64,000 bases of DNA from Oscillospiraceae bacterium. GTDB lineage: Bacteria; Bacillota; Clostridia; Oscillospirales; Ruminococcaceae. Position 1 is the stretch's first letter. Every line of letters starts with the position of its first letter. Shown one piece after another: positions 10,390 to 64,000 of this stretch. The notes beneath the pieces are model-generated. The model did not search any database. It was not told the origin of the DNA and saw nothing but the letters and a program-made list of their open reading frames with translations. The position numbers and the translations under genes are program-made. Location of the stretch: contig JAUNSK010000006.1 in assembly GCA_030539275.1 (NCBI GenBank), positions 95,198 through 159,197 of the forward strand. Reading direction: 5' to 3'.

Positions 10390-10400
10390 CCCCCGTTTTC

Positions 10401-10700: not shown

Positions 10701-10702
10701 CT

Positions 10703-44936: not shown

Positions 44937-45025
44937 GTAAACAGCATCACAAAAAAACCGTAAAATCAAGCTATTTATTGTGAATATTTTTTTTAATAAA
45001 GCAGTAAATAAATGAAATAAAAGTA

Positions 45026-45053
45026 TTGACAAATGAATAATGTATGGTATAAT
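45026..45053 (+). promoter_or_regulatory. Promoter of the T-box operon
   Basis: TTGACA (45026-45031), a 16-bp spacer and TATAAT (45048-45053). The predicted transcript would begin near 45060, just before the T-box leader. Confidence 0.75.
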
Positions 45054-45069
45054 GAAAACTGTAAAACAT

Positions 45070-45348: not shown

Positions 45349-45425
45349 GTTGTCCAAAAAAATCTGGTCTCATTATATTATTAACCCAATACATCAAAAA
45401 CAATATTTTTGTGAGGAGTAACTTT

Positions 45426-47681: not shown

Positions 47682-47744
47682 ATTACATCTGCTCCTCTGC
47701 CAATTGACAGGGGAGCAGTGCAGGTTAAAAACAAGAGAGAAAAT

Positions 47745-48782: not shown

Positions 48783-48802
48783 TTAATGAAATGGGTGGTA
48801 TT

Positions 48803-49195
48803 ATGACTGATAAGCATAAATATAACACCATATTCATGAATATTTTGAATATGTCAGGCAAAGCTTTGCTATATGATTCTGATCTCAGTTTCATAAATGA
48901 CGTTTACAACAACACGGGAATAACAATAATATCAGCCAGTCAGCTTGGCTGTGAGTATAAAGAAATTCAGTTTGATGAATTAACAACCGGTGATATTGCT
49001 TTTTACAGTACAGATGCCGGGAATATATTTTACGGGGTAGTACTCGGAATCATCAACAGGAATATGATTTTTAAATCAGCAGAATTTAAATTTGCACAGA
49101 TCGTCAGCCTTAACAAAAGATATGAAGACTATAAATTCAGGCGCGGCTTCAGTATGCATAATTTATCAGAAGACGTCACAGGAGGTAAAATATGA
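48803..49195 (+). CDS. Degenerate NlpC/P60-like protein next to murL
   Basis: A 130-residue protein, ATG 48803 behind GGGTGG. The layout resembles NlpC/P60 peptidases without their signal: YDSDLSFINDVYNNTGITI aligns by eye with the fDCSGfvxyvyxxxGi helix, and FDELTTGDIAFYSTDAGNIF with the lxPGDLvFf strand. The C-terminal YEDYKFRRGF matches the usual Y-x-x-x-R-R end. However the catalytic Cys is replaced (DSDLS), and the catalytic His of HVGIYLG is replaced by Tyr/Val (YGVVLG). If the similarity is real, it is a cytoplasmic, catalytically dead relative. It overlaps murL by 4 bp, so it is coupled to cell-wall precursor synthesis. Identity is uncertain. Confidence 0.4.
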   Translation: MTDKHKYNTIFMNILNMSGKALLYDSDLSFINDVYNNTGITIISASQLGCEYKEIQFDELTTGDIAFYSTDAGNIFYGVVLGIINRNMIFKSAEFKFAQIVSLNKRYEDYKFRRGFSMHNLSEDVTGGKI

Positions 49196-50580
49196 GCGAT
49201 TACGAAAGATTCCGGAGCCTTTATCCGGAGTTTGTCTATCATGGATACGATATTGAAGAAACTGAAGAAAGTATAGGCATCAGATATAACTTTGAAATAC
49301 GCGGATTGTCAGACTTCAATCCGACCTGGAAGTTCATCAAACAGGATGCACAGAGTCTTAAAAACAACAGAACTTTCAACAAACTGGTTTTTTCACTTGG
49401 AATGGTAGAGCTTGTCAGCTACTGGAAAGTGACATGTTCTCCACTCGTTACTGTCAAGGGATTCAGCATGACACAAAAACAGATCAGCTGGTGGAAAAAG
49501 CTGTACTATAACGGTCTCGGTGAGTTCTTCTACAGAAACCAGATCGATGCGGATCCTTTGACATTTATGAATATTGAAGCGTCCGGAAATGATGATTTTT
49601 CACAGCATGACAACATCCCCCGTGATCTTAATGGCTGTCTTATACCGGTTGGAGGAGGCAAGGATTCTATTGTAACCCTTGATCTTCTGAGCGATATGGT
49701 ACCTGAGTCATGCTGTTATCTCATCAATAAACGAAACTCAATATATCAGTCTGCCTATACAGCCGGATATACCGATGGCCAGATAGTACTTGCTCAGCGA
49801 ACACTTGACAAGAACATTCTGCGTTTAAACTCTGAAGGCTTCCTGAATGGTCATACACCTTTTTCTGCAATAGTAGCATTTTCATCAGTTATCGCAGCTT
49901 TTATGAACTCAAAAAAATATGTCGTACTGTCAAATGAGGCCAGTGCAAATGAATCAACAGTAAAGGGTTCGCAGGTAAATCATCAGTATTCTAAGAGTTA
50001 CGAGTTTGAAAAAGACTTTTTTGAATATGAAAAAGAATTCATCGGTTCAGAAGTATACTATTTCAGCATGCTCAGACCTCTGAGTGAATACCAGATAGCA
50101 TCATATTTTTCTGATCTGAAAAAATACCATAAGATTTTCAGAAGCTGCAACGTCGGCAGCAAAACTGATTCATGGTGCTCAAACTGTTCAAAATGTCTTT
50201 TTGTCTGCCTTATACTTTCACCGTTCCTCGAATATGAAGAATTGTGCGAAATTCTCGGCAGCAATATAGCAGACAGAGAGGATATGCTTGAAACGTTCAG
50301 AAAACTTATCGGATTAACTGACGAGAAGCCGTTTGAATGTGTAGGAAGCAGAGATGAAGTGAACTTTGCAGCAGCAGCTGCTGTCAGAAAGATGGAAGAG
50401 GCAGGCAAAAGACTTCCCCTTCTTTTCGAGTACTATAAAACAACCACACTGTACAGCGAATACAGGAATAAAAAGAATGATCTGCTGGAAGGATACAATA
50501 AGACAAATAACCTCCCTGAAACGTTCAAAGAAATACTTTTCAAAAAATGCTGCAGAAAAGGGATAATTAAAAATGATTGA
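49192..50580 (+). CDS. murL: UDP-MurNAc-L-Ala-L-Glu epimerase MurL
   Basis: A 462-residue protein coupled to its neighbours by overlaps on both sides (ATGA with the preceding gene, 8 bp with murD2). It holds the PP-loop-like motif IPVGGGKDSIVTLDLL (about residue 155), a helical C-terminal domain and a Cys pair WCSNCSKC (about residue 328). This combination, and a MurD-like ligase directly after it, identify the MurL family first described in Xanthomonas. There, MurD2 adds L-Glu to UDP-MurNAc-L-Ala and MurL then epimerises that Glu to D-Glu using ATP and a metal. The route replaces or bypasses glutamate racemase (MurI). No signal peptide or membrane span is present, consistent with the cytoplasm. 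Confidence 0.82.
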   Translation: MSDYERFRSLYPEFVYHGYDIEETEESIGIRYNFEIRGLSDFNPTWKFIKQDAQSLKNNRTFNKLVFSLGMVELVSYWKVTCSPLVTVKGFSMTQKQISWWKKLYYNGLGEFFYRNQIDADPLTFMNIEASGNDDFSQHDNIPRDLNGCLIPVGGGKDSIVTLDLLSDMVPESCCYLINKRNSIYQSAYTAGYTDGQIVLAQRTLDKNILRLNSEGFLNGHTPFSAIVAFSSVIAAFMNSKKYVVLSNEASANESTVKGSQVNHQYSKSYEFEKDFFEYEKEFIGSEVYYFSMLRPLSEYQIASYFSDLKKYHKIFRSCNVGSKTDSWCSNCSKCLFVCLILSPFLEYEELCEILGSNIADREDMLETFRKLIGLTDEKPFECVGSRDEVNFAAAAAVRKMEEAGKRLPLLFEYYKTTTLYSEYRNKKNDLLEGYNKTNNLPETFKEILFKKCCRKGIIKND

Positions 50581-51904
50581 ACTTCTTAAGAAATATATAA
50601 AAGATAAAAATGTACTTATACTCGGATTCGGACGCGAGGGACGTTCAACACTAAAAAAACTGTACGAAGCCGGAGGATACAGATCAGTTGCCGTTGCTGA
50701 TAAAAATCCTGTCAGTGATATAGAGGATGATTCTGTCAGACTGATCTGCGGTGATGATTACCAGAGTTCACTCGATGACTTTGATATTGTTATAAAGAGT
50801 CCGGGAGTTGTGCTTGACAAGCCATTTTCGTCATATAAATGCAGGATTACTTCACAAACTGAAATATTTATTGAGAGGTATGCCAAGTCAATAATCGGAA
50901 TAACAGGAACAAAGGGTAAGAGTACAACGACTACGCTCATTTACCACATACTTTCGGAGTGCGGTGTTGACTGTGTTCTTGCAGGAAATATTGGCATTCC
51001 TTCATTTGATGTTGCTGACAAGTTAAATGCTTCGACCCTTGTAGTATATGAGCTGTCTTGTCATCAGCTTGAAAATATACGCTTCTCACCTCATTTTGCC
51101 GTATTTCTGAATCTTTTTGAAGAGCATCTTGATCACTACGGAACATTTGAAAACTATGCAAATGCAAAGCGAAATATATACAGATATCAGTCAGAAAATG
51201 ACTATCTGATATGTTCGTCTGATCTGACTTCGTATGAAACTATCAGATCACATGTACTGAGCGCATCAATGACTGATCCGTCTGCAGATATAACTGCAAA
51301 TGACAAATCCATCACATTTCCGGGACAGACAATAGAAATGGAGAATGTCAGCACATGTCTTGTAGGAAGTCACAATAACTACAATCTTGCAGTGGCATTT
51401 GCAGTATGCAGCAAGTATGGGATCAAAACAGAGGATATGATCCGTGCAGCCGGTACGTACAAATCACTTCCGCACCGTCTGGAATTTGTTGCCGAGATAA
51501 ACGGAGTAAAATACTATGATGATTCCATTTCTACTATGTGTCAGTCAACTATACAGGCTGTCAGGAGTCTTAAAAATGTCGACACTGTGATCATAGGCGG
51601 AATGGACAGGGGAATAGATTATACTGAGCTGATTGATTACCTCTTCAATAATCCCGTAAACAATATTATACTGATGTCTGACTCCGGCAAACGCATACTC
51701 AGTGAGATAAATGAGAAGTATAAAGGCAGTCAGCTTGAAGAGCACACCGTCTACTGCAGCACACTGAAATCAGCTGTTGATAAAGCTAAACAGCTGACAG
51801 CACCATCAAAAACCTGTGTCATGTCGCCGGCCGCTGCGAGCTATAATGAGTATAAAAATTTTGAACAACGCGGAGATTATTTCAAATCATATGTTCTGAA
51901 TTAA
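50573..51904 (+). CDS. murD2: UDP-MurNAc-L-Ala-L-Glu ligase MurD2
   Basis: A 443-residue Mur ligase. The N-terminal Rossmann-like domain begins LILGFGREGRSTLKKLYEAG. The ATP loop is GITGTKGKSTTTTL (about residue 108) and the central domain has ELSCHQLENI and LNLFEEHLDHYGTFENYANA. In the C-terminal domain the segment DDSISTMCQSTIQAV replaces the DSKATN motif of classical D-Glu-adding MurD. That change marks the MurD2 group, which takes L-Glu. The gene follows murL with an 8-bp overlap and is the last of the operon, ending at a perfect 12-bp-stem terminator. Whether the genome also has a classical murD and murI cannot be seen from this window. Confidence 0.88.
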   Translation: MIELLKKYIKDKNVLILGFGREGRSTLKKLYEAGGYRSVAVADKNPVSDIEDDSVRLICGDDYQSSLDDFDIVIKSPGVVLDKPFSSYKCRITSQTEIFIERYAKSIIGITGTKGKSTTTTLIYHILSECGVDCVLAGNIGIPSFDVADKLNASTLVVYELSCHQLENIRFSPHFAVFLNLFEEHLDHYGTFENYANAKRNIYRYQSENDYLICSSDLTSYETIRSHVLSASMTDPSADITANDKSITFPGQTIEMENVSTCLVGSHNNYNLAVAFAVCSKYGIKTEDMIRAAGTYKSLPHRLEFVAEINGVKYYDDSISTMCQSTIQAVRSLKNVDTVIIGGMDRGIDYTELIDYLFNNPVNNIILMSDSGKRILSEINEKYKGSQLEEHTVYCSTLKSAVDKAKQLTAPSKTCVMSPAAASYNEYKNFEQRGDYFKSYVLN

Positions 51905-51916
51905 TAAATTATTAAA

Positions 51917-51949
51917 AACCATATGGACCTTACGTCCATATGGTTTTTT
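51917..51949 (+). terminator. Terminator of the T-box operon
   Basis: AACCATATGGAC pairs with GTCCATATGGTT around cttac, followed by TTTTTTG. Confidence 0.85.
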
Positions 51950-52191
51950 GTCTCAATTAGCTGTAATAAGCTTACATAAACAGTTAATTTATGTAATAAA
52001 GTTTGCTTATTAGACATATAAACCAATTTATTATTCGTCAAAAACATAAAAAATGTAAAAATTTAATTTTTTAGTTGATATAATGCATTTTATTTGATAT
52101 AATATAGATATAACATAGACATTACGGAACACTTTTTCGTATATCTTGTTGTACAATGTCACAAAATGAGTAAAATAAGGGGTGATCATTA
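51950..52191 (+). promoter_or_regulatory. A+T-rich leader and promoter region of the biosynthetic cluster
   Basis: No gene seen. TTGATA (52075-52080), 17 bp, TATAAT (52098-52103) make a strong promoter. The 10-mer TTGATATAAT occurs twice within 20 bp (52075 and 52094), giving two overlapping -10 candidates. The ribosome site AAGGGGTGAT (52178-52187) precedes an acyltransferase frame with no ATG/GTG/TTG in register. Confidence 0.7.
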
Positions 52192-53145
52192 ATTATTGCA
52201 AATACATGCAGAAAACGCGTATTTGTTTATCAGGGCTTAGGGGCAAATATTCAGAAAACTATCAGCAAGTTCAGTAATATGCAGCTGATACGTTTTAACG
52301 AGCTTGTCAGAAAAGTACAGAACTACACAAATGTTAATCTGTCCGGTTATCTTGAGAATAATATATTACCTGATGTAACACAGACGATATATTCACAGGC
52401 TATGCTGACATGTATTTCAAATTATGTGGTTTATGATGAATGCATTAAAAATGCAGTATACCCTGACTGTTTAATGGGGTACAGTCTGGGATTGACAAAT
52501 GCTCTCTATTGCAGCGGGTCCATAACACTGCGTGATCTTTCTGACTTAACCTACTCCGTTGCCAGATGTATAGGCAACTCTGTAAAAGAATGTGCTTTCT
52601 TTGATATGGGAACAATTATTGGATTAGATATGGAGGATGTAAAAAAATTAATTACTGAGAACAATTGCAGCCAGTATGTGTTTATTGCAAGTGAAAATTC
52701 TGAATACTTTATAGTAATTTCAGGTTTGAGGGAATACGTTGAGATTATTCTGGATAAGGCAATCAGTGCAGGAGCACTGAAAGCAAAAGCGCTGAAAACC
52801 AATTTTGCTTTTCACACACATATGATAGACAAATATATTGATGATTTTTATTGCACAGTTGAGAATGTAAACTATAGCGATACAAGAGTACCAATTATGT
52901 CAATATACACTCAGAAACTAATATGCAAAGCGGATGAACTCAGGGAAGAACTCAGGAAAAATATTGTCTCATGTATGAAATGGCGTAAAACTGTAGAGTG
53001 CATAGAGAATACATCAACAGCAGAGTTCTGGGATATGAGTCCTGATTGTTCAAACAAAAAATCTACGGTGCTCAAAAGTAATTCCGTATTTAATACTTTA
53101 AAATCATTAGAAAATTATAAAACAGACATGGAGGAAATAATATGA
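52192..53145 (+). CDS. Malonyl-CoA:ACP acyltransferase-like (trans-AT), apparent ATT start
   Basis: An FabD-type acyltransferase of about 317 residues. The conserved opening RVFVYQGLGAN (the FxFPGQGxQ strand of the family) is coded at 52210-52242. It lies upstream of the first in-frame ATG at 52279, so starting at 52279 would amputate the fold. The frame is closed by TGA at 52183. AAGGGGTGAT stands at 52178-52187, so translation most likely begins at an ATT (52192 or 52195), or an upstream frameshift or error exists. The nucleophile elbow is GYSLG (Ser98; GHSxG in most) and the catalytic His is in FAFHTHM (His208). It probably loads the extender or starter onto one of the cluster's ACPs and is the first gene of the cluster. 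Confidence 0.75.
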   Translation: MIANTCRKRVFVYQGLGANIQKTISKFSNMQLIRFNELVRKVQNYTNVNLSGYLENNILPDVTQTIYSQAMLTCISNYVVYDECIKNAVYPDCLMGYSLGLTNALYCSGSITLRDLSDLTYSVARCIGNSVKECAFFDMGTIIGLDMEDVKKLITENNCSQYVFIASENSEYFIVISGLREYVEIILDKAISAGALKAKALKTNFAFHTHMIDKYIDDFYCTVENVNYSDTRVPIMSIYTQKLICKADELREELRKNIVSCMKWRKTVECIENTSTAEFWDMSPDCSNKKSTVLKSNSVFNTLKSLENYKTDMEEII

Positions 53146-53459
53146 ACGTTATTACAGATGAAATCAAGGTTGAGCTCAAGGATATGATATATGATTTTTT
53201 TGCAGATGAATGCGAAGTTGATATCAAAGACCTTAAACCGGAAACAAACATCATTGAAGAGCTTGACGGGGATTCACTAATGGTAATAGAACTGATTGAA
53301 AATGTCAAGAAAAAGTACAGTCTTGAACTTAAACTGCAGACTATAGGCAAATATATGCTTAAAAACTCTGTAGAAACCCTGAGTGAGATAGTAAATCTTT
53401 TCAATTTAATTTATCAGTATGGTGACGATATAATAAACGTTGAGGTTTGCGGAGCATGA
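53142..53459 (+). CDS. Acyl carrier protein 1 of the cluster
   Basis: A 105-residue protein overlapping the acyltransferase gene by 4 bp (ATGA). The phosphopantetheine attachment serine is in the motif DGDSLMVIELIE, preceded by TNIIEEL as in canonical ACPs. The helix II continuation NVKKKYSLELK is standard. The 25-residue C-terminal extension beyond the ACP fold (LFNLIYQYGDDIINVEVCGA) is unusual and may be a docking tail. Activation needs a phosphopantetheinyl transferase, which is not in the window. It overlaps the first crotonase gene by 4 bp. Confidence 0.88.
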   Translation: MNVITDEIKVELKDMIYDFFADECEVDIKDLKPETNIIEELDGDSLMVIELIENVKKKYSLELKLQTIGKYMLKNSVETLSEIVNLFNLIYQYGDDIINVEVCGA

Positions 53460-54175
53460 TCCGGTCATCCATCTCAGAGATTGATTCTCAGGGAGATATT
53501 TGTATATTACAGATTTCAAACGGTAAAAAGAATAAAATCACCGTTCCTGAATTCGTTGAAATAAATGAGTTAGATAATTTTATTAAAACACATAACTCAA
53601 AGGGACTTGTCATTACTGGTAATGACAGAAATTTTTCTGACGGTGCTGATGTATCTATGATTGACAGCTGTATCAGCAATCCTGAAGAGCTAACCGAAAA
53701 ACTTAGAAAAGGCAAAGAGCTTTTGTATTACATAGAAAACCTGCCTATAATCACTGCAGCAGCCATAAACGGAGCGTGCTTTGGTGCAGGCCTTGAAATT
53801 GCTTTAAGCTGTCAGTTCAGATTCAGCAAAAGTAATGCTTTTTTTGCTTTTCCTGAAGTATCAAGAGGTATTATCCCAGGAATGTCAGGAGTTGAAAGAC
53901 TTACACGGCTTATCGGAAAATCTTCCGCTGTAAAAATGGCTTTGTCAGGCGAGATGATAACTGCACAGCAGGCTTTTGATTCAGGACTTATTGACGAAAT
54001 AGTAACAGATACAAGTGTTCTTGACTCGTGTCTGAATTTCGTAAATGATCTTACTGAAAGCAGAAGTCTCGGGCAGATAAAAAGTATCGTCATGACAGCA
54101 AACAATTCAGTTACAGTTAACAAGTTTTCTGATATGGATTATTTTGAACAGGTTTTGTCAGACAAGAAGGTGTGA
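53456..54175 (+). CDS. Crotonase-fold enoyl-CoA hydratase-like enzyme 1
   Basis: A 239-residue protein; ATG 53456 overlaps the ACP stop as ATGA. It has the crotonase oxyanion-hole segments FSDGADVSMI and INGACFGAGLEIALSCQ, then FPEVSRGIIPGMSGVERL. Both glutamates of hydratases (in GAGLE and in FPE) are present, so it can plausibly catalyse hydration/dehydration of a 2-enoyl thioester. Crotonase-fold proteins in polyketide clusters also act as dehydratases or decarboxylases in beta-branching (PksH/PksI), but no HMG-synthase is present here. Its N-terminal strand is less conserved than in beta-oxidation enzymes, consistent with an ACP-bound substrate. Confidence 0.85.
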   Translation: MIRSSISEIDSQGDICILQISNGKKNKITVPEFVEINELDNFIKTHNSKGLVITGNDRNFSDGADVSMIDSCISNPEELTEKLRKGKELLYYIENLPIITAAAINGACFGAGLEIALSCQFRFSKSNAFFAFPEVSRGIIPGMSGVERLTRLIGKSSAVKMALSGEMITAQQAFDSGLIDEIVTDTSVLDSCLNFVNDLTESRSLGQIKSIVMTANNSVTVNKFSDMDYFEQVLSDKKV

Positions 54176-54176
54176 T

Positions 54177-54563
54177 ATGACAAGCAGTTATTCACTTGTA
54201 GCTCAGGGATGCGATCTTGATTCGCTTGGACATATAAACAATTCCGTATATCTCAAATATCTTGAAAGTGCTCGCTGGGATTTTTTTTATCAGTCTGGTC
54301 TGCTTGATTCTTTCAACTGTCAGAAACTTCTCCTTGTTGTTCTGGAAACTAAGATAAGATATATAAGAGAAATTAAAATATTTGACAATGTTGAAGTTAA
54401 AACAGTCTGGGAATGCACTGACGGAATAATGATAAATAAACACAGACTCGTTAATTCAAAAAACGGAGAATTGTTTGCCAAAGCGGAATGCAAGCTGGCA
54501 TTTATAGACCAAAACCGTGTAGTACATGATATACCTGAAGAAATAAAAACCACAATAAGGTAA
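54177..54563 (+). CDS. Hot-dog acyl thioesterase (4HBT-type)
   Basis: A 128-residue protein; ATG 54177 lies one base after the crotonase stop with AAGGTG upstream. The opening is the 4HBT/YbgC pattern DLDSLGHINNSVYLKYLESA, with the catalytic Asp region. Two later strands (IRYIREIKIFDNVEVKTVWE and NGELFAKAECKLAFID) complete the hot-dog fold. The size and motif fit acyl-CoA/ACP thioesterases that release a chain. A second, alpha/beta-hydrolase type thioesterase lies at 61610, so this one could release the product and the other edit mis-primed ACPs. Substrate unknown. Confidence 0.85.
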   Translation: MTSSYSLVAQGCDLDSLGHINNSVYLKYLESARWDFFYQSGLLDSFNCQKLLLVVLETKIRYIREIKIFDNVEVKTVWECTDGIMINKHRLVNSKNGELFAKAECKLAFIDQNRVVHDIPEEIKTTIR

Positions 54564-54570
54564 AACTACA

Positions 54571-55209
54571 ATGAAAGAAATAACAACAAAGGATAGCTGC
54601 ATATATGCAGATTTTGAAGTTCTGTGCGATTACGATCTGTATGAAGAATTTCAAAAACAGACAGAAATACTCATCGAAGAAGGAAAATATGCTGTTGTAG
54701 CAATATACCGAACTGACAACAACAGATCAATCAGTCTGCCTGTCAGTAAAATATATGATTTTTTAAGCAAACTGCCTTTGATAACAATTCTTGTGGCAGA
54801 TGATTTTAATAATACAGACCCTGAGCTGCTGTTTGCATTTGATATGCGTGTCGGCAAAGGTCCGTATACAATAAAAGCTGCACTTGGTTATGATGGATTT
54901 GCTTATGATTTCAATGCACGGTTTGTGCATCTTTTCGGAAAAAATGAATATAAAAAAATGATTGAATGCCATAACGGAAACAGAGATTATACTTCAGATT
55001 TGCTTATAATTGACTGTACTGACAGTGATTCAGTATTTGATTGTGCAAATAAGTATATTGATTCTCTGACCGCAGGAAAATCCACATTTCAGTTAAATTC
55101 AATATTAAAATGCTACAGTCATGTAAAGTGCAGCGAAACTGCTGACACAGAAAAAATGTCAGATGAAGAATTGCTGCAGTTTGTAACGCAGATTGTTCAT
55201 ATAAGCTAG
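54571..55209 (+). CDS. Degenerate crotonase-fold protein
   Basis: A 212-residue protein seven bases after the thioesterase gene. I recognise the crotonase helix-strand pattern LPLITILVADDFNNTDPELL followed by FAFDMRVGKGPYTIKAAL, which parallels the P-V-I-A-x-x-x-G-x-x-x-G-G-x-E-L-x-x-x-x-D-x-R segment of the family. The glycine-rich turn and the second catalytic glutamate (the PE of hydratases) are lost. The first half (residues 1-60) lacks the usual oxyanion-hole glycine/alanine triplet. It is therefore probably a non-hydratase partner or a diverged isomerase/decarboxylase. Its place between two intact crotonases suggests it arose by duplication within the cluster. Confidence 0.5.
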   Translation: MKEITTKDSCIYADFEVLCDYDLYEEFQKQTEILIEEGKYAVVAIYRTDNNRSISLPVSKIYDFLSKLPLITILVADDFNNTDPELLFAFDMRVGKGPYTIKAALGYDGFAYDFNARFVHLFGKNEYKKMIECHNGNRDYTSDLLIIDCTDSDSVFDCANKYIDSLTAGKSTFQLNSILKCYSHVKCSETADTEKMSDEELLQFVTQIVHIS

Positions 55210-55229
55210 TGCTTAAAATGGTGACAACA

Positions 55230-55934
55230 ATGAATAAAAAATATGAGACATTAATGATAAGTGAAAGTAATTCAACAGCAATAATTACGTTTGATGCACC
55301 TTACTCCAACAGAATGTCAATGCAGTTTATTGATGATCTTTCGTCAGCTGTAGAAACCTGCATAGAAGCAAAGCCTGACGGTATAATTCTTACCGGCGCA
55401 GGACGCCATTTCTCAGTAGGTGCTGATGTTGATGAACTTCGCATTTCCACTTCTTCCGGAACAGAACTTGACAAAAACGGCAGCATCGTCTGCATACCGG
55501 AAAAACAGAATAGGATACGGGAAACTTTAATCAGATTATCAAAACTCAGCTGTCCTGTTGCAGCAGCAATCAAGGGTTTCTGCATAGGTTCAGGCGCAGA
55601 ACTTGCTTACTTCTGTCACTTCAGAATATGTGAAAGAAGTATGAAAATAGGCTCACCTGAATCAACTTTCGGTATAATGCCAGGTCTTGGCGGATGTGTC
55701 AATACATACAGATTATGCGGACTGCAGGCTTCACTTGATATGGTATTGACAGGAAAATTGCTGACTTTTGAAGAAGCTGAAAGAAATAATATTGTAGATA
55801 TAGTCAGTGAGAAAAACAAAAGTCTTGAAACTGCATTAAATCTGATATCATTTATCAATTCACAGGGTAAATATGATCCGGAAGACAAATATCAGATTAT
55901 TTCAAGATTTACTAAGGAGGTAACCAGAATATGA
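55230..55934 (+). CDS. Crotonase-fold enoyl-CoA hydratase-like enzyme 2
   Basis: A 234-residue protein; I choose ATG 55230, with GGTGA upstream, over GTG 55209 and ATG 55218. Motifs are FSVGADVDELR, IKGFCIGSGAELAYFCH and GSPESTFGIMPGLGGCVN. Both hydratase glutamates (GSGAE and SPE) are retained. It is closer to the beta-oxidation/hydratase consensus than the crotonase at 53456. The two may act on different chain lengths, or one as hydratase and one as isomerase that shifts a double bond. It ends 4 bp into the dehydrogenase gene (ATGA). Confidence 0.87.
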   Translation: MNKKYETLMISESNSTAIITFDAPYSNRMSMQFIDDLSSAVETCIEAKPDGIILTGAGRHFSVGADVDELRISTSSGTELDKNGSIVCIPEKQNRIRETLIRLSKLSCPVAAAIKGFCIGSGAELAYFCHFRICERSMKIGSPESTFGIMPGLGGCVNTYRLCGLQASLDMVLTGKLLTFEEAERNNIVDIVSEKNKSLETALNLISFINSQGKYDPEDKYQIISRFTKEVTRI

Positions 55935-57022
55935 ATATTGGCATTGTCGGCAACGGTAAAATGGGTAATGAGATATTCTGGCTGACATTTAACAGTGGTC
56001 ATAATGTTGTCATCATGTGTGTTCTGAATGCCCGGGAATATGAGGCTAAAATTAAAAAGCAACTTGCTAAGATGCTTAAAAGGGGCATTGTTGATCAGGC
56101 CGGATATGATACATATATGAGCAGCTATAAAGTTACTGAAAATTACGATGATTTCAGGGACTGTGATCTGGTAATAGAAGCAGTACCTGAAAATCCTGAA
56201 CTGAAAAGACAGATATTCAGTACACTTGAGAGAGTAACAGATAATAAATGCATACTTGCAACAAATACATCTTCTATTCCCCTTAACCAGATTTTCAGCA
56301 GCTGTACTTTAAAGGAGAGATGTGCAGGCCTTCACTTTTTCTATCCTGTTATGCTCAGTTCAAGTGTTGAGATCAATACAGAAGATTTTACTTCTCATCA
56401 GACAATAAATACATTAAGTCAGCTGGTCACACAGATGCAGAAAAATCCGCTGATACTTAAAGACAAATTCAATATGTTTATCAATATGGCAATAGCTGTA
56501 GGTTCATCTCATGTATGCTACAGTATTTTCTGCAGCAATATAAGCTTATCTGATGCCAGGAACAAGATAATACCTCAGTATATGGAGTGTTCAGTATTTG
56601 ATATTATTGATTCTGTGGGAACACAGATCATAGGTACAAGTATCAGAAACTTTATGAATGATGAAAACAGATCACTTCTTTCCTGGTATATGGAGCATGT
56701 ATTTTCAAACAGTGAGTTTGGTTTAAAAGACAGTACAGCAGATCCGGAAAAATGCAAAAATGAAATCATACTCAGCTTTTATGCGGTTCTGATGAATCTG
56801 ACGGCATATGCATACAAGGAAGGAAATTGCAGCTTTAGTATTATCAAAGCTATTCTGGAAGATATGTTCATGCTTCACAAAGGATTCAATGAGGTTTACC
56901 ACGAGTATGGATACGAACTTCTGACATCATTTCTTGATCAGTATGATAATAGAATGCCATGCAGGATATATAACAAGATAAGCAAATCTGTATACGACGA
57001 AGTTTTTGGTGAAGGGAGTTAA
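55931..57022 (+). CDS. 3-Hydroxyacyl-CoA dehydrogenase-like enzyme
   Basis: A 363-residue protein, coupled by ATGA overlap to the crotonase. It opens with the NAD loop MNIGIVGNGKMGNEIF (GxGxMG). The catalytic region NKCILATNTSSIPLNQIF and GLHFFYPVM, with the His of HFF(N/Y)P, is as in HAD enzymes. The C-terminal domain is longer than usual and weakly conserved. In this setting it most simply acts in reverse, reducing a 3-oxoacyl thioester with NAD(P)H, replacing a FabG-type ketoreductase, of which none is seen. The family also includes methoxymalonyl-type and other dehydrogenases, so a role in making an unusual extender unit is an alternative. Confidence 0.82.
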   Translation: MNIGIVGNGKMGNEIFWLTFNSGHNVVIMCVLNAREYEAKIKKQLAKMLKRGIVDQAGYDTYMSSYKVTENYDDFRDCDLVIEAVPENPELKRQIFSTLERVTDNKCILATNTSSIPLNQIFSSCTLKERCAGLHFFYPVMLSSSVEINTEDFTSHQTINTLSQLVTQMQKNPLILKDKFNMFINMAIAVGSSHVCYSIFCSNISLSDARNKIIPQYMECSVFDIIDSVGTQIIGTSIRNFMNDENRSLLSWYMEHVFSNSEFGLKDSTADPEKCKNEIILSFYAVLMNLTAYAYKEGNCSFSIIKAILEDMFMLHKGFNEVYHEYGYELLTSFLDQYDNRMPCRIYNKISKSVYDEVFGEGS

Positions 57023-57023
57023 T

Positions 57024-58238
57024 ATGGACAGAAAAGTTTATGTAACCGGGATGGGAATGATAACGTCACTCGGATATGATTTAAATACTACATGGGAAAA
57101 TCTGAAAGCAGGCAAATCCGGAATAGATACGATAAAACGCATTGACCCATCTGCACTTGAAACTCAGATAGCAGCAGAGGTAGGCAGTGGTTTTGAAGAC
57201 TATCTCACAACAAAGGTATCAAAACGGCAAAGAAAACAGATGACAACGGCAACAAGAATGTCAATGGCTGCAAGTTTTCAGGCTATCGATCAGAGCAGAA
57301 TAGATTTTACAACCTGTGATTCAAACCGTGTCGGAGTGATCATGGGTGTAATCAATACATCAGATAATACGGAAATTGAAGATCTCACAAATCATCATAT
57401 AGTAAAAGGAATGCCAAGTGCACCTGCATCATGGTTGTCTATTATTAATGGTCTTAAGGGACCTAGTTTCAATATTTCAACAGCATGTGCATCGTCAGCA
57501 TATGCAATTGCAACTGCCTGTCAGTTCATAAAGTCTGGAATATGTGATATAGTTATTGCCGGCGGAACAGGTTCATGTGTAACTTCCGTACAGATAAATG
57601 GCTTCAATCAGATCATGGCCATGAGTGTAAACAATGACGACCCTGCCGGTGCATGCAGACCATTCTCAAAGAGCCGTGACGGTTTTATTCTCGGTGAAGG
57701 TGCAGGAACATTAATTCTTGAATCTGAAGAATCTGCCAAGGCAAGAAATGCTCATATTTATGCTGAACTTTCAGGATTTGCAATGACTGAAGAAGCAGTT
57801 GACATAACGGCACCTGAGGCAGACGGTAAAGGAATGGCCAGATGTATGAGCCTTGCCCTTGAAAATTCAGGTTATACCCCTGATCAGGTTGATTACATTA
57901 ATGCACATGGAACGTCAACATACCTCAATGATAAATATGAAACTATGGCCATTGAAAATGTATTCGGAGACAAAGCCCGCAAAATTCCTGTTTCGAGTTC
58001 AAAATCAATGATAGGACATACGTTGGGTGCATGCGGTGCTATTGAGTCAATAATTACAATAATGACTATAAACACCGGAATTATTACTCCAACAATAAAT
58101 TATAACGATCCTGATCCGGAACTTCAGCTGGACTATGTTCCGAATGTATGCAGAAATAGTGAAGTAAATGTTGCTATCACAAATTCCTTCGGATTTGGGG
58201 GACATGACGCAACACTGGTTTTCAATAAACATATATAA
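57024..58238 (+). CDS. Beta-ketoacyl-ACP synthase (FabF/KAS II-type ketosynthase)
   Basis: A 404-residue ketosynthase; ATG 57024 lies seven bases after GGGAG. The catalytic triad is complete: Cys155 in ISTACASSAYA, His295 in INAHGTSTYLND and His332 in SMIGHTLGACG. It would condense an acyl starter with a malonyl-ACP extender. The GFGGHDATL end is standard for FabF. It is the only ketosynthase in the cluster, and no chain-length factor is adjacent, so it probably works iteratively or performs one condensation. It sits centrally after the dehydrogenase gene. Housekeeping fabF normally lies with fabG, acpP and fabD. Here instead the neighbours are crotonases and AMP ligases, which argues for a specialised pathway. 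Confidence 0.93.
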   Translation: MDRKVYVTGMGMITSLGYDLNTTWENLKAGKSGIDTIKRIDPSALETQIAAEVGSGFEDYLTTKVSKRQRKQMTTATRMSMAASFQAIDQSRIDFTTCDSNRVGVIMGVINTSDNTEIEDLTNHHIVKGMPSAPASWLSIINGLKGPSFNISTACASSAYAIATACQFIKSGICDIVIAGGTGSCVTSVQINGFNQIMAMSVNNDDPAGACRPFSKSRDGFILGEGAGTLILESEESAKARNAHIYAELSGFAMTEEAVDITAPEADGKGMARCMSLALENSGYTPDQVDYINAHGTSTYLNDKYETMAIENVFGDKARKIPVSSSKSMIGHTLGACGAIESIITIMTINTGIITPTINYNDPDPELQLDYVPNVCRNSEVNVAITNSFGFGGHDATLVFNKHI

Positions 58239-58250
58239 AAGGAGATCATT

Positions 58251-58586
58251 ATGCCAGTAGTTAAGTTTACAACAAACGTAAAACCCGATAATTCAGAAAA
58301 GCTGCTTTCAGATATTGCACAGTGCATATCTGAAGTACTTGACAAACCTCTTAAGGCTGTAATGATGATGTTTTCACAGCAGGAATTTTACATGAACAGT
58401 TCATCAGATCCAGCTGCCTATATAGAAATTTTTTATGTCGGAGAAATTGATGCGTCAGTAAAAACAACACTCACAGATTCACTTCTGGAGATATTCATCA
58501 AGGAACTTCATGTAGACCCTTACCGGGTATACATGAACCTGATCCAGAATAAAAGAGAAGACGCATGGAGATATATTGAGAAATAG
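58251..58586 (+). CDS. MIF / tautomerase-superfamily protein
   Basis: A 111-residue protein, ATG 58251 with AAAGGAG upstream. It opens MPVVKFTTNV, so processing would leave the N-terminal Pro that acts as catalytic base in MIF and 4-oxalocrotonate tautomerases. DKPLKAVMMMFSQQEFYMN and a length of 111 match the MIF/phenylpyruvate tautomerase family. Such enzymes interconvert keto and enol forms. In a polyketide cluster this could tautomerise or help cyclise a poly-beta-keto intermediate or an unsaturated ketone. Tautomerases are rare in such clusters, so a specific chemical step is implied. Confidence 0.85.
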   Translation: MPVVKFTTNVKPDNSEKLLSDIAQCISEVLDKPLKAVMMMFSQQEFYMNSSSDPAAYIEIFYVGEIDASVKTTLTDSLLEIFIKELHVDPYRVYMNLIQNKREDAWRYIEK

Positions 58587-58625
58587 TATAACATAATAAA
58601 TATATAAAGATGGATGGTGATATTT

Positions 58626-59771
58626 ATGCAGTGGTCAATCAGGACCCTACTTAACCCGGTTATTACAAGATTATTGATCTATGGAGTTAATCCTATAGAT
58701 CTTGAATATGTACTCAAAGAGGTAGAAAAAGCACCGTTGATAAATGGAAAAGCTTTAGAAAAAGAATGGGTAAAACAGTGGAGTCAGAAATCTTCACATT
58801 TTACAGCTCTGGCATCAGAAGCAGAAAATAAAAATAATGCTGTTACAGCACGTGAACTCTATAAGCTTGCTTCACAATGTGATTATGCGTGCTATATGAT
58901 TAATTCAGAAGACATAAGCAGCAAAAGAATTACATATAAAAAATTTGAGCATAGTTACAGCAGTTATGTATCTAATCTGGAAAACGAAGTAGTATTAACA
59001 AAAATTCCATTTGGCGACAATAAATATCTGCCGTCTTATATTCATTATCCGGATACAAATAAATACACAGCACCTTTCCCTACAGCAATACTGTTTGCGG
59101 GTCTTGGAAGTTCCAAGGAAGAACTCAATACTCTGGCTCAGCCTCTGGTCGACCGCGGTATTGCCGTTCTCGCTGCAGATCTGCCGGGAACAGGTTCAGC
59201 TCTGTTTGATTATAACCTTAAGTGTACAAGTCAGCCTCTTGAACATGCATTTGACTGTCTGGTTTCAGAAGTTATCAGCAACGAGAGGCTTGATGATTCG
59301 AAAATGTGTACATATGGTCTCTGCATGGGCGGCGGATATGCATACAGGATCGCTGCCAGAGATAAACGCATCAAATGCTGTGTAAATCTGTTTCCTCTGT
59401 TTATAGGTGAGATAGGTTTAAATAAGCTTCCGAGATGGATGAATAAAGGAGAATGGGCAAATTATCAGTCAGGCAAATATGAAACGCAAGAGACATATTA
59501 TTACGATATGGCAGTACTTGAAGAAGGAAGTGTATCCTGCGATTATCTTCTTGTTCATGGCACACATGATAACTGGATGCCTTGTGAAAAGAGCAAACAG
59601 CTTTATGACAAAGCCACAGGCTTTAAAGAAATCATAGTTGTTGAACAGCCTCCGGTTTTCTCAACAAGCGAAGCAATTACTCATACGATGCCTGTCGGAG
59701 AACAGCTCCACTGGCTCAAACATGTAGTATCCGACTGGATAAAAGAGCGTTTAGAAAATAAAGGAGATTAA
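58626..59771 (+). CDS. Alpha/beta hydrolase with Cys nucleophile (FrsA/DUF1100-like)
   Basis: A 381-residue protein; I choose ATG 58626, six bases after GGTGAT. Residues 1-110 are a helical cap-like domain (VNPIDLEYVLKEVEKAPLIN), as in the FrsA/2,6-dihydropseudooxynicotine hydrolase group. Residues 145-380 form the hydrolase fold. The nucleophile elbow is YGLCMGGGYA, so Cys233 replaces the usual Ser, as in dienelactone hydrolase. The acid is probably in HGTHDNWMP and the histidine in ITHTMPVG. Members with this cap include C-C bond hydrolases and chain-shortening hydrolases of polyketide pathways. It may cleave or cyclise the product. The substitution of Ser by Cys should change reactivity toward acyl transfer. 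Confidence 0.8.
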   Translation: MQWSIRTLLNPVITRLLIYGVNPIDLEYVLKEVEKAPLINGKALEKEWVKQWSQKSSHFTALASEAENKNNAVTARELYKLASQCDYACYMINSEDISSKRITYKKFEHSYSSYVSNLENEVVLTKIPFGDNKYLPSYIHYPDTNKYTAPFPTAILFAGLGSSKEELNTLAQPLVDRGIAVLAADLPGTGSALFDYNLKCTSQPLEHAFDCLVSEVISNERLDDSKMCTYGLCMGGGYAYRIAARDKRIKCCVNLFPLFIGEIGLNKLPRWMNKGEWANYQSGKYETQETYYYDMAVLEEGSVSCDYLLVHGTHDNWMPCEKSKQLYDKATGFKEIIVVEQPPVFSTSEAITHTMPVGEQLHWLKHVVSDWIKERLENKGD

Positions 59772-59773
59772 TC

Positions 59774-61321
59774 GTGAATTATAACTATTTTGATTTTTTT
59801 GAAAAATATGCTGAAGAAACAGGTTCAAAACCGTTAATTACAATTGATGATGTAAGTCTCACATATCATGATTTCCATATTATAAGAAACAAACTGGCAT
59901 CTGCTCTTAAAATGAATGGAATATCAGAAAATAAAAAGGTTGGATTAATAATTCCGAATTCACTGGTCTGGTATAAGATTTTCTGGTCTGCCATTCAGCT
60001 TGGTGCTCAGCCGGTACCGATGGATCCGCAAAGCGGAGAGCTCGAACTGAACAGACTTCTTGATGTTACTACTGTAGAGATATGTTTTGTTGCGATAAAG
60101 TACAGAAACAATCATATTCTTGAAACAGTAAAAAAAATAATAGGTTCACATAAAAATATAAGAAAAATAGTAGTTGTAGATGAAAGCTTTGAAGATACTG
60201 GTGATGGTTTATTTGTATCATTTAACAGCTTCCTCAATGAAGCAGAATGCAAAAACGCTTTACCTGTTTATCAGGCTGATGATGATCATGTAATGTCACT
60301 TGCATGTACATCCGGAAGCACAGGTAATCCAAAAGTTCTTTCAGTTCCTTACCAGGGATTTTATGAAGCAATAAAAGACATTTCTGATTATCTTGAATTC
60401 AATTCAGATGACGTAATGATGATAGGCATGCCACTATATCACCAGGGCGGCTTCGGAATGGGTCTTCAGACAGTCATGAAGGGCGGATCTGTTATTTATC
60501 AGCCGCAGTTCGAACCTGTAAAATTTCTTAAGACCGTAGAAAAATATAAAGTCAGTGTTATCCAGCTTACTTCAACTCTTGCAAAAATTCTTTTGTCTGT
60601 GCCTGACTTTGACAGTTATGATCTGTCAACTGTCAAGGTATGCTATTTTGCAGGTGAAGTTCTTCCGCGTGATATTGCAGATTTCTTTGTAAAGAAGCTG
60701 CATATCAGAGTAATCAATGTTATCGGCTCATCAGAAACTGCCACAATGGTAGTCTGGGATTCAGATACAGACTTTGAAACAGACCCAAGTGATTTCAGGG
60801 AACTGCCGTTTACTAAGACAAGAGTAATCGATGATTTCGGCAATCCTGTTGAACCCGGCACTCCCGGAGAGTTATGTATATTTACTACAGCAGTTATTTT
60901 CAACTATTTTGGAAATCCTGAAGAGTCCAAAAGTAAAGTAGTTAATTACGACGGTAAACGATGGTTCAGGACAGGGGATCTGGTTACAACACAGCCTGAC
61001 GGAAGGCTTCGTTTTGTAGGCAGAAGCAAGAGAATAATTAAAAGAGGTGCAAACCTCGTTCATGCTGAAGAGGTTGAATCATTTATTCTTACGCATCCGA
61101 AAATCCAGGCCGTTGCTGTAACAGCTGAAGATCATCCGGTAATAGGCCAGCAGATCGTGGCTTATATTCAGACAGTTGACAACGAAAAAATCACAAGAGG
61201 CAATCTTGCATCTTACTTTGCAGGAAAGCTTGCAGCATATAAGATACCTGACAAAGTTGTTATTACCGAAGATCTTCCTAAGGATATCGGTAAGATTCAA
61301 TTTAAATATATACGTAAATAA
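59774..61321 (+). CDS. AMP-dependent acid ligase 1 of the cluster
   Basis: A 515-residue adenylating enzyme starting at GTG 59774, behind AAAGGAG and two bases after the hydrolase stop. The P-loop is CTSGSTGNPK (about residue 177), followed by GSSETATM, the ATP loop RTGDLVTTQ, and RSKRIIKRGANLVHAEEVE. The C-terminal catalytic Lys is in DIGKIQFK. The enzyme is of the acyl-CoA/acyl-ACP synthetase class. With ACPs and a ketosynthase nearby, it probably loads a carboxylic-acid starter onto ACP or CoA. It lies directly before ACP2, which suggests ACP2 as its partner. Specificity residues cannot be assigned by eye. Confidence 0.88.
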   Translation: MNYNYFDFFEKYAEETGSKPLITIDDVSLTYHDFHIIRNKLASALKMNGISENKKVGLIIPNSLVWYKIFWSAIQLGAQPVPMDPQSGELELNRLLDVTTVEICFVAIKYRNNHILETVKKIIGSHKNIRKIVVVDESFEDTGDGLFVSFNSFLNEAECKNALPVYQADDDHVMSLACTSGSTGNPKVLSVPYQGFYEAIKDISDYLEFNSDDVMMIGMPLYHQGGFGMGLQTVMKGGSVIYQPQFEPVKFLKTVEKYKVSVIQLTSTLAKILLSVPDFDSYDLSTVKVCYFAGEVLPRDIADFFVKKLHIRVINVIGSSETATMVVWDSDTDFETDPSDFRELPFTKTRVIDDFGNPVEPGTPGELCIFTTAVIFNYFGNPEESKSKVVNYDGKRWFRTGDLVTTQPDGRLRFVGRSKRIIKRGANLVHAEEVESFILTHPKIQAVAVTAEDHPVIGQQIVAYIQTVDNEKITRGNLASYFAGKLAAYKIPDKVVITEDLPKDIGKIQFKYIRK

Positions 61322-61365
61322 TTCTGGCATATGATACCGGATTTAAATTATTGGAGGAATAAATT

Positions 61366-61617
61366 ATGAATAACTTAAAATGGGACGAATTTGCACAAAA
61401 TATTTCTGACTATGTTGGTGTCGAAAAAAATGAAATAAATGAAGATACAGATTTATATTCAGATCTCTGTCTGGATTCACTCGGTTTATTCAGTATCGGA
61501 ATGTATCTTAATGGAATATACAAGCTTGAAGTTCCTCTGTCAACTATGGCCGTTGTAAGTAAGGTCGGTGATATGTACAGAATACTAAATGAAGAAGGCA
61601 AACCGTCTAATGGCTGA
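61366..61617 (+). CDS. Acyl carrier protein 2 of the cluster
   Basis: An 83-residue protein, ATG 61366 with TTGGAGG upstream. The attachment serine is in LCLDSLGLFSIGMYLNGIY, with the preceding DTDLYSDL typical of starter-unit carrier proteins. It differs strongly from ACP1 (53142). It overlaps the thioesterase start by 8 bp and follows AMP ligase 1, so it probably carries the activated starter. The cluster therefore has two carrier proteins, one near the acyltransferase and one near the ligases. This division suggests separate loading and extension tracks. Confidence 0.86.
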   Translation: MNNLKWDEFAQNISDYVGVEKNEINEDTDLYSDLCLDSLGLFSIGMYLNGIYKLEVPLSTMAVVSKVGDMYRILNEEGKPSNG

Positions 61618-62350
61618 TACTACTTTGTTTGTTATACCCCATGCAGGCGGGTCAGCTATGGGGTATATGAACTTCAAAAGACTGCTTGACGACTCTGTTT
61701 CTCTTGTTCCGCTTGAGCTTGCAGGCAGAGGAAAGAGAATAAAAGAACCGTGTTTTGACGATATAGAAAAATGTGCAGAAGATCTTTTTGAAAAACATAA
61801 AGACGAATTCAAAAAAGGAAATTATGCGTTCTTCGGACACAGCCTCGGAAGTCTTATAGCTTTTGCACTTTCCCGGATCCTGAAGGTAAATGGCTATCCT
61901 GACCCGATACAGATTTTCTTTTCAGGAAGACAGGCCCCTTGTGTCAATATGTCTGAAATAGTCGGATGCTATGCAGGCCTTAATGATGAAGAGTTTATAA
62001 ACAAGTTTACTTCTTTCAGCGCACTTCCTGAGGCGCTGATGAATAATAAGGAGCTTATCACTTTTATACTCCCGATACTGAGAAGTGACATATGTATGGC
62101 AGAAAATTATCATCCTGTTTATAAGGACGGAGTGCTCAGCTGTGATATCACCATACTCAGCGGTATAAATGATCTGCTTGTATCAGGACAAAATATTGAT
62201 CTGTGGAGAAAATGTACAACAGGTAAGCTTGAAGCATTCACATTTAACGGCAGCCATTTCTATTTTAATGATGCTGAACAAAGAAAATTATTATGTGATA
62301 TAATAAATAAAAAATTAGCAATTAACAGTGAGGTGTTAAAAAATGTCTGA
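61610..62350 (+). CDS. Type II thioesterase (alpha/beta hydrolase)
   Basis: A 246-residue protein; ATG 61610 overlaps the ACP2 stop, and an alternative ATG at 61589 is possible. The opening TLFVIPHAGGSAMGYMNF and the nucleophile motif FFGHSLGSLIAFALS (Ser about 85) are classic for the GrsT/TEII family that clears mis-acylated carrier proteins in polyketide and non-ribosomal peptide clusters. The Asp is in SGINDLLVS and the His in NGSHFYFND. Its presence is strong evidence for carrier-protein-bound biosynthesis rather than catabolic beta-oxidation. The 8-bp overlap with AMP ligase 2 continues the operon. Confidence 0.92.
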   Translation: MADTTLFVIPHAGGSAMGYMNFKRLLDDSVSLVPLELAGRGKRIKEPCFDDIEKCAEDLFEKHKDEFKKGNYAFFGHSLGSLIAFALSRILKVNGYPDPIQIFFSGRQAPCVNMSEIVGCYAGLNDEEFINKFTSFSALPEALMNNKELITFILPILRSDICMAENYHPVYKDGVLSCDITILSGINDLLVSGQNIDLWRKCTTGKLEAFTFNGSHFYFNDAEQRKLLCDIINKKLAINSEVLKNV

Positions 62351-63923
62351 TACATTTAATGAGGTCTATTCATGGTTTGGCAAGCAGTTTAGTGACGACC
62401 ATGAAGTTCTTTGCCTCGATGAGAAAACGATGAATCTTGGAGAGTATAAGACAAGAGTAAACGAATTGACAGCACATCTTATAAATCTTGGTGTACGTAA
62501 AGGAGACGGCGTAGGCTATACTATTAAAAACTGTCTTGATGTTATGCCGCTGTTTACAGCAATCGGTTCTATAGGAGCATTTACAATTCCGATTTTTCAT
62601 GGAATGCCTCCGGCAGCCAAAGTTCAGACATACAAAAATGTTAATGCTAAGTTTGTCGTAACAGACGCTGATCTTGCAGATGATCTGAAAAAAACTGCTG
62701 AAAATATGTCAGCACAGTTTCAGATTTTAACACTGACACCTTATAGTGATTATTATTCACTTGAAGGCAGCTGCAAAGCAGATATAGATATTTCTCAGTA
62801 TATAATTGAACATCCTGATAAAAACCTCAAACTGTTAGTCGCTTCAAGTTCAGGCACTACCGGTATTCCTAAAACTGTTGAGATATCTCAGGAAAACGTC
62901 GGCTCCGAGAATCACGCTGCTATGGAGATGATATCTGATGGCTCAGACTTAGTAGATATCAGGCACTCATGCATCGCTTTTCCATTATCCACATCAGTTA
63001 TGACCGTTATCATGTCTATGATGTTTGTAGGTCACACAGTCGTTTTCTCGGCAGATAATTCTCCGAAAAACTTTCTTACTAATATAGAAAGATGGAAATG
63101 TGAGCTTATGTCGACACCTCCGGCTTTCTACGAATCATTGCTTGTACTTAAGGATTCGAATACGCGTGACCTTTCAAGTCTTCAGGTTGTAGCTGCCGGT
63201 ATGGACTTCTGTTCACCTTCTTTGCTAAGAAGACTGCGTTCAATGTTTGTAAATGCGAAATACTTCTCAAACGGCTATGGCCTTGTAGAAACAACAAATA
63301 TATTTACATATAATACGATACGTATCGATGGTGAGGAAATAATAGGAACATCTACTCTTAAAGTATGCAAAACTGCTGAAAATACTGTGGAGATAAGAGA
63401 CGACAATAATAATCCTGTTAAAATCGGTGAAACAGGTGAGCTTTATGTAAAGGGCACAAACGTTATCGAGGGTTATCTGATAGATAATACCGGTTCAAAG
63501 GAACCTTTCAAGGATGGCTGGTTCAGAACAGGTGATATTGCACGTTTTGAAGCGGAGGATACAATTACTCTGCTTGGCAGAAGAAAATATTTTATCAAAA
63601 GGGGAGGAAAATCAGTTTCACCTATCGTTGTCCAGAATGAGCTTAACAAGGTAAGCGGCATTAAGGATTCCGGTGTTGTAGGTGTACCTCATCCGCTTTT
63701 CGGTGAAATGATCTGGGCATTTGTAGTCAAAGAAGATGGCTGCGATGTTTCTCTTAAGGATATCAAGATGCACTGCCGTGAAGCTCTTCCATATTATATG
63801 ACACCTGATCAGGTATCATTTATTGATGAGATTCCTAAAAACTCCGGCGTAGGCAAGGTAAACTTTAATAAACTCAGAGAAATGGCTCAGGAACTGCTTG
63901 ATAAAATAAATATTAAAAATTAA
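62343..63923 (+). CDS. AMP-dependent acid ligase 2 of the cluster
   Basis: A 526-residue adenylating enzyme whose start overlaps the thioesterase end. The P-loop is ASSSGTTGIPK (about residue 168), then SNGYGLVETTN, the ATP loop WFRTGDIARF, and RRKYFIKRGGKSVSPIVVQ. The catalytic Lys is in NSGVGKVNFNKL. It differs greatly from ligase 1, so the pathway may activate two different acids, or one enzyme may couple the finished acyl chain to another group. It is the last complete gene seen. No terminator follows within 77 bp and the cluster may continue beyond the right edge. Confidence 0.88.
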   Translation: MSDTFNEVYSWFGKQFSDDHEVLCLDEKTMNLGEYKTRVNELTAHLINLGVRKGDGVGYTIKNCLDVMPLFTAIGSIGAFTIPIFHGMPPAAKVQTYKNVNAKFVVTDADLADDLKKTAENMSAQFQILTLTPYSDYYSLEGSCKADIDISQYIIEHPDKNLKLLVASSSGTTGIPKTVEISQENVGSENHAAMEMISDGSDLVDIRHSCIAFPLSTSVMTVIMSMMFVGHTVVFSADNSPKNFLTNIERWKCELMSTPPAFYESLLVLKDSNTRDLSSLQVVAAGMDFCSPSLLRRLRSMFVNAKYFSNGYGLVETTNIFTYNTIRIDGEEIIGTSTLKVCKTAENTVEIRDDNNNPVKIGETGELYVKGTNVIEGYLIDNTGSKEPFKDGWFRTGDIARFEAEDTITLLGRRKYFIKRGGKSVSPIVVQNELNKVSGIKDSGVVGVPHPLFGEMIWAFVVKEDGCDVSLKDIKMHCREALPYYMTPDQVSFIDEIPKNSGVGKVNFNKLREMAQELLDKINIKN

Positions 63924-64000
63924 TAATAAAAATGGCTGATCGAAAGTGATATGTACCCAGATTTCTGGACACATTGATTTATGAATTAGACACAACACAT
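63924..64000. other. Right-edge sequence, nothing recognised
   Basis: This stretch has no open frame of note, no terminator hairpin and no ribosome site. The cluster's next gene may start beyond the edge. Confidence 0.4.

Follow-up and report, generated by a model that had tools for sequence, protein, structure and literature searches.

Gene content and catalytic residues

The window analysed here is a 64,000-nucleotide stretch of an Oscillospiraceae bacterium genome (GCA_030539275.1, contig JAUNSK010000006.1, positions 95,198–159,197). It ends in an acyl carrier protein (ACP)-based set of 14 genes, all on the + strand (52279–63923, counted from the ATG of the first gene), preceded by a predicted sigma-70-like promoter identified by its match to the consensus (TTGATA-17-TATAAT with an extended −10; 52075–52103, +). 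The first eight genes, termed module A, encode a FabD-fold acyltransferase (AT; 52192–53145, with a likely ATT start upstream of the ATG at 52279), ACP1 (53142–53459), the intact crotonase ECH1 (53447–54175, likelier start at ATG 53456), a 4HBT_2/FadM-like hot-dog thioesterase (54144–54563, likelier start at ATG 54177), a degenerate crotonase, degECH (54571–55209), the intact crotonase ECH2 (55209–55934), a 3-hydroxyacyl dehydrogenase (HAD; 55931–57022) and a KASII-type ketosynthase (KS; 57006–58238, likelier start at ATG 57024). An MIF-family tautomerase (58251–58586) is followed by module B, comprised of the alpha/beta enzyme ABH (58614–59771), the AMP-forming acid ligase AMP1 (59774–61321; 59–71% identity across same-genus loci), ACP2 (61366–61617), a type II thioesterase (TEII; 61589–62350, overlapping ACP2 by 8 bp if started at ATG 61610) and a second acid ligase, AMP2 (62343–63923), which ends 77 bp before the contig end.

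A first-pass annotation had described a rightward set of 14 genes of these families, with three crotonases, one of them degenerate, and both the gene content and the intact catalytic residues bear this out. As it stated, FabG, FabZ, an enoyl reductase, an HMG synthase, a thiolase and an acyl-CoA dehydrogenase are all absent from the 14 genes. A housekeeping fab operon sits elsewhere in the host genome (at G000:C7); the set is separate from it, as expected of a dedicated, dissociated ACP-type system, and the idea that it substitutes for the fab genes fails.

Catalytic residues were counted in alignments that took in the window and every relative reaching at least 70% of the length (59–74 sequences per family). 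They were invariant in every aligned family, save for one gap at the ABH His. The Cys-His-His of KS was kept in 64/64 sequences, the Glu pairs of ECH1 and ECH2 in 60/60 and 62/62, the Ser, His, Glu and Asn of HAD in 63/63, the Ser-His pair of AT in 59/59, the Ser of ACP1 and ACP2 in 60/60 and 67/67, the Ser and His of TEII in 68/68, and the N-terminal Pro of MIF, which follows the Met, in 67/67. The long form of degECH matches the crotonase fold, but its Glu pair is broken, with the second position not kept and the first Glu present in 10/15. The open reading frame (ORF) at this place is reduced to 137–152 aa, yet retained, in loci of Ruminococcus flavefaciens and R. albus (L041, L044, L057, L067 and others). 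degECH is fused to ECH2 in three loci (L074, L090, L100), and a FadB-like fusion of ECH2 to HAD occurs in two same-genus genomes (L024, equal to L037, and L027). In L026, from a genome in four contigs (G006), HAD (9644–10769) and TEII (15711–16431) are each split over two frames, possibly by sequencing error.

The predicted structure of ABH has a helical N-domain and an alpha/beta domain, as in AntI and Ayg1, and AntI, the DHPON hydrolase and Ayg1 are its nearest relatives by both fold and sequence. The fold of the polyketide-trimming enzymes AntI and Ayg1 is shared by the DHPON hydrolase, FrsA and AbyA5, the last of which acts on tetronates. They use a Ser nucleophile, whereas in ABH a Cys replaces the Ser of the GxSxG motif in 74/74 sequences; the Asp is kept in 74/74 and the His in 73/74. 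No ABH match was found in phages and none was confirmed in viral contigs, while plasmid matches reached only 22–29%.

Recurrence of the set as two modules

The set is present in 10 of the 11 genomes of the window's genus, its own included. ABH was found in nine of these, again including its own; in the tenth (G003, locus L027), the cluster is cut by a contig end. Ten same-genus loci were annotated, of which eight, one per genome, carry the genes from AT to TEII together. Among these eight, ABH precedes KS in three, ECH2 and HAD share one frame in one, and the degECH place is taken in three by an ORF of some 190 aa without a match; L021 is cut within TEII by the contig end, and AMP2 is found only in L019. 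The ninth, L027, covers part of the set on a short contig, and the tenth, L028, is a different locus. A profile search of GTDB genomes with ABH gave 75 loci, mainly from R. flavefaciens, R. albus and unnamed Ruminococcus, and AT and ABH occur together in 58 of them. ABH is present in 51/125 genomes of the R. flavefaciens genus and in 4/29 of the R. albus genus, including one taken as R. albus 7 (G191), in which the complete 13-gene set (L172) has an unmatched ORF at the degECH place. A link between the set and cellulolysis was considered and dropped, as GH48 is found in 112/125 genomes of the R. flavefaciens genus and thus does not discriminate.

The expected recurrence as a unit in rumen and gut anaerobes was confirmed, and in our searches no described pathway matched the set, as the annotation had supposed. 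Literature searches, with most subscription journals and supplements outside their scope, found no published description of this gene set. The set is a real, conserved pathway type, a variant of dissociated ACP-based assembly for which no description was found in the literature.

The description of the set as one unit holds in Ruminococcus, where the genes stand together, but must otherwise be amended: it consists of two separable modules, since A and B each occur without the other alongside. Module A without B beside it was seen in two Lachnospiraceae. Module B without A beside it was seen at seven loci from three phyla, all with enough flanking sequence to show AMP2 present and no adjacent KS (L030, L031, L047, L063, L077, L081, L088); their sources include Lachnospiraceae, Pseudobacteroides cellulosolvens, Chloroflexota and Myxococcota. 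In one of these seven genomes, that of [Clostridium] polysaccharolyticum (L030), module A lies on another contig (L179), together with genes for an aldehyde ferredoxin oxidoreductase, a KASIII, a B12-radical SAM enzyme, a flavodoxin and a phosphopantetheinyl transferase (PPTase). Its degECH was matched by hhalign at 96.8%. A 159-aa ORF without a Pfam match is found within the same module (L179, 4504–4983). Dispersal of the genes in relatives, which the annotation had named as evidence against a unit, thus fails in Ruminococcus and is seen in this species, with the set split over two contigs. In the other six genomes, five of which are draft metagenome-assembled genomes (MAGs), the best KS was at the level of FabF (46–48%) or none was found. 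A screen of 397 genomes from the family of [C.] polysaccharolyticum yielded one further module A (L195), with a KASIII and a radical SAM enzyme that match those of L179 at 63% and 50% and with AT apart from the other module A genes; no module B gene was found within the 30 kb examined around it. In the KS tree, the cluster KS and FabF fall on opposite sides of a weakly supported branch (61), and one [C.] polysaccharolyticum KS labelled FabF (L139), placed near that of the window, turned out to belong to module A.

Judged by its genes, the window is the locus type that holds everything, that is, both modules plus AMP2, which is missing from 53 of 54 comparable KS loci. Over the 61 loci with enough flanking sequence (14 of 75 were omitted), 53 have KS without AMP2, seven AMP2 without KS, and one both (Fisher p = 1.8e-8). 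We considered whether AMP2 and KS exclude each other as alternative sources of supply, and rejected the idea. In an ABH tree of 31 of 62 rows, left after thinning near-copies and built by a quick method without bootstrap or a known root, the window and L029 fall together with the seven cassettes that bear AMP2, while the 22 AMP2-less KS rows lie beyond a single branch (SH-aLRT 100), so that only one AMP2 change is required. Together with the module A found on another contig in the supposedly KS-less L030 genome, this makes the AMP2/KS pattern a matter of history rather than independent evidence.

A proposed pathway and its alternatives

We somewhat favour the interpretation of the set as a specialised-metabolite pathway of two modules, and infer its reactions, their order and the product from the gene content, residues, folds, modularity and distribution described above. 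Module A would assemble an unsaturated acyl chain on ACP1, which KS would extend with malonyl units, with HAD reducing the 3-keto group and ECH1 and ECH2 carrying out dehydration. Because no enoyl reductase is encoded in the set, the double bonds would be retained, and repeated rounds would be predicted to yield a conjugated chain, or polyene. ECH2 and HAD may work together as in FadB, but in the reverse direction, and degECH is a possible structural partner of ECH2. The ketoreduction and dehydration suggested by the annotation are consistent with the intact residues and with the ECH2–HAD fusion, but remain predictions from sequence. Module B would activate a second acid, with AMP1 loading ACP2 and AMP2 activating a further or alternative acid. 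ABH would take acyl groups on its Cys and, with help from the tautomerase, release or join the two partners, while the hot-dog thioesterase and TEII would serve in editing. MIF enzymes are phenylpyruvate tautomerases that enolise arylpyruvates, and the tautomerase might likewise enolise a keto intermediate. The arylpyruvate step is the weakest part of the model, because this role is carried over from the family and MIF, present only in L077 and L088, is absent from five of the seven cassette loci.

Several other observations weigh against the two-module pathway. HAD and crotonases usually act on CoA esters, so that ACP substrates would have to be assumed here, and the host FabG and FabZ could act in trans for reduction and dehydration. 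In the extension by KS and AT that the annotation suggested, the malonyl role of AT is doubtful, because none of the 59 sequences has an Arg at the malonyl-Arg position of FabD (Asn in 40, His in 11, Val in 5 and others in 3). An Arg is found one residue further on in 46/59, and the host's own FabD has its Arg in place. For the short forms of degECH in R. flavefaciens and R. albus, hhalign gave no match to crotonases (2.2%), and the ABH model is of low confidence around H357, with blocks at pLDDT 79 and 52. The cassette is also variable, as L063 lacks AMP1 and L081 lacks TEII. In L195, the degECH-like ORF matches only at 66%, the hot-dog ORF has 27% identity, and the HAD motifs read NSSS/HYFYP rather than NTSS/HFFYP. 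Finally, genes for tailoring could be encoded past the end of the contig, 3' of AMP2.

One of the closest parallels is the celluxanthene (cex/faf) cluster of Clostridium thermocellum (PMC12144888; see also the flavoaffinin preprint, PMC11839114). Both systems occur in cellulolytic anaerobes and combine polyene assembly (proposed here) with an AMP ligase, a discrete ACP and an alpha/beta hydrolase. Both kinds of genes are present in Pseudobacteroides cellulosolvens: those of module B at L063, with no AMP1 and with AMP2 split over two frames, and two cex-type loci (L143, L144) elsewhere. We compared the set with these two loci rather than with that of C. thermocellum, recognising them by the published gene order of KASIII, ACP, KASIII, ligase, hydrolase, polyketide synthase (PKS) and PPTase, the last judged by eye. 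Orthology of ABH, AMP1 and ACP2 with CexE, CexD and CexB was rejected, as the similarity is only distant: AMP1 is 23% identical to the L143 ligase, and the L143 hydrolase has a Ser nucleophile and no BLASTP match to ABH (hhalign 6.6% for the L143/L144 hydrolases). Furthermore, cex relies on one large iterative PKS (CexF, with KS, AT, ACP, ketoreductase and dehydratase) and two KASIII, none of which is among the window's 14 genes. As far as the sequences tell, the set is not a celluxanthene cluster.

Reducing type II PKS and aryl polyene systems resemble the set in their discrete KS, ACP, reductase, dehydratase, thioesterase and ligase. They employ a FabG-like ketoreductase and a hot-dog dehydratase, whereas the window has HAD and crotonases in the corresponding roles, a single KS and no chain-length factor. 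A discrete KS with Cys-His-His and ACPs with Ser are thus shared; a short-chain dehydrogenase/reductase-type ketoreductase and a hot-dog dehydratase are not, the hot-dog protein of the set being a thioesterase by family. FabG and FabZ types, the marks of housekeeping type II fatty acid synthesis, are likewise absent from the set. The set shares with FadB/FadJ a crotonase and a HAD, fused in some relatives; in the window the genes are separate and accompanied by ACPs and a KS, without a thiolase.

Since HAD, crotonases and ligases are all beta-oxidation families, the set might be a degradative or fermentative CoA operon. This appears very improbable: neither a thiolase nor an acyl-CoA dehydrogenase is among the 14 genes, after which the contig ends, and two ACPs, a KASII-type KS and a FabD-fold AT are regular members with intact catalytic residues. 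Scarcely more probable is a cassette that supplies extender units or beta-branches to another PKS. HAD and ACP do occur together in hydroxymalonyl-type extender pathways and crotonases in pairs in HMGS cassettes, but there is no HMG synthase among the 14 genes, the KS Cys is kept in 64/64, unlike in decarboxylase-type KS lacking it, and 7 of the 12 genomes examined lack a KS belonging to any other PKS that such a cassette could supply. The close relation of ABH to AntI, the DHPON hydrolase and Ayg1 suggests another outcome, in which ABH trims its substrate or acts as a C–C lyase, giving a polyketide that is shortened or cyclised instead of a joined pair of acids. We consider this unlikely, though less so than the two preceding possibilities, given the consistent exchange of Ser for Cys and the occurrence of module B without module A beside it.

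The set might also account for the yellow, cellulose-binding pigment that R. flavefaciens makes, which would then be a polyene, aryl or other, fused to an arylpyruvate-type head, and a functional counterpart of the celluxanthenes made by unrelated genes; we regard this as possible, but with the balance clearly against it. In its favour are the phenylpyruvate tautomerase activity of MIF proteins and the tetronate activity of AbyA5, which shares the ABH fold. The cluster KS is the sole match to PF00109 besides FabF in 7 of the 12 genomes (007c, MA2007, YAD2003, Y1, YL228, R. albus KH2T6 and R. albus AR67); in the remaining five the matches number 1 (in the MAG of L033), 3, 6, 7 and 21. On the other side stand the complete set in R. 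albus 7, a species not known as classically pigmented, and the presence of ABH in only 51 of the 125 R. flavefaciens-genus genomes. Yellow growth is, however, reported for both R. flavefaciens and R. albus in PMC11055587. Yellow pigment is described as common in R. flavefaciens, above all on cellulose (PMC9653558, PMC8865330), yet its strain DSM 25089 (strain 17) is reported to lack both cex genes and celluxanthenes (PMC12144888), which may also count in favour of the pigment. On cellulose, R. albus 7 induced no gene set more strongly than the tryptophan operon (PMC4300822); the induction would fit a Trp-derived partner, but was attributed in that study to Trp-rich enzymes. The same source gives 3-phenylpropanoate as a requirement for R. 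albus to grow optimally on cellulose.

A fuller and rather speculative scheme, which we hold to be improbable as a whole, would make the long-sought yellow pigment of cellulolytic ruminococci a polyene built on ACP1 by reversed beta-oxidation-type chemistry; ABH, as a Cys enzyme with the AntI/AbyA5 fold, would join this chain to an arylpyruvate that is enolised and carried on ACP2. The celluxanthene logic would then have arisen a second time, independently, in the rumen, and the window would preserve an intermediate in which a two-ligase joining cassette (module B with AMP2) met module A, with AMP2 dropped in later Ruminococcus lineages as module A supplies the partner.

In dissociated polyketide and fatty acid systems, reduction is usually carried out by FabG-like and dehydration by hot-dog enzymes. 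A conserved ACP-linked set with HAD and crotonases in their place would, if true, amount to a new enzymatic route to double bonds that involves no enoyl reductase. The set is widespread in leading rumen cellulose degraders, whose small-molecule chemistry is little known, and would offer a gene handle on the identity of the R. flavefaciens pigment and perhaps on the stimulation of R. albus by phenyl acids on cellulose. Module B, which is portable, occurs in three phyla and includes a Cys variant of a fold known from polyketide trimming, also deserves attention in its own right.

Neighbouring features

A hairpin of 15 pairs with a T run (51914–51948, strand not assigned) separates the set from murD. 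The region directly upstream (47718–51904) encodes HydE, a 134-aa ORF, a MurL-like epimerase (235.8 bits against a cut-off of 700) and MurD; judged by eye, the same trio adjoins the set divergently in L039 and L053. An Rfam scan of 45000–64000 (E up to 0.1) gave a T-box as its sole match and no leader element 5' of the set. This T-box leader (RF00230; 45080–45324, +; 87.5 bits against a gathering threshold of 93) lies 5' of an MbcS-like acyl-CoA synthetase gene (45411–47681). The same genome contains another nonribosomal peptide synthetase/PKS-like cluster (L112; G000:C3:128001–148000), which encodes two KS-like proteins and three ORFs resembling type II thioesterases, along with what by eye is a likely PPTase.

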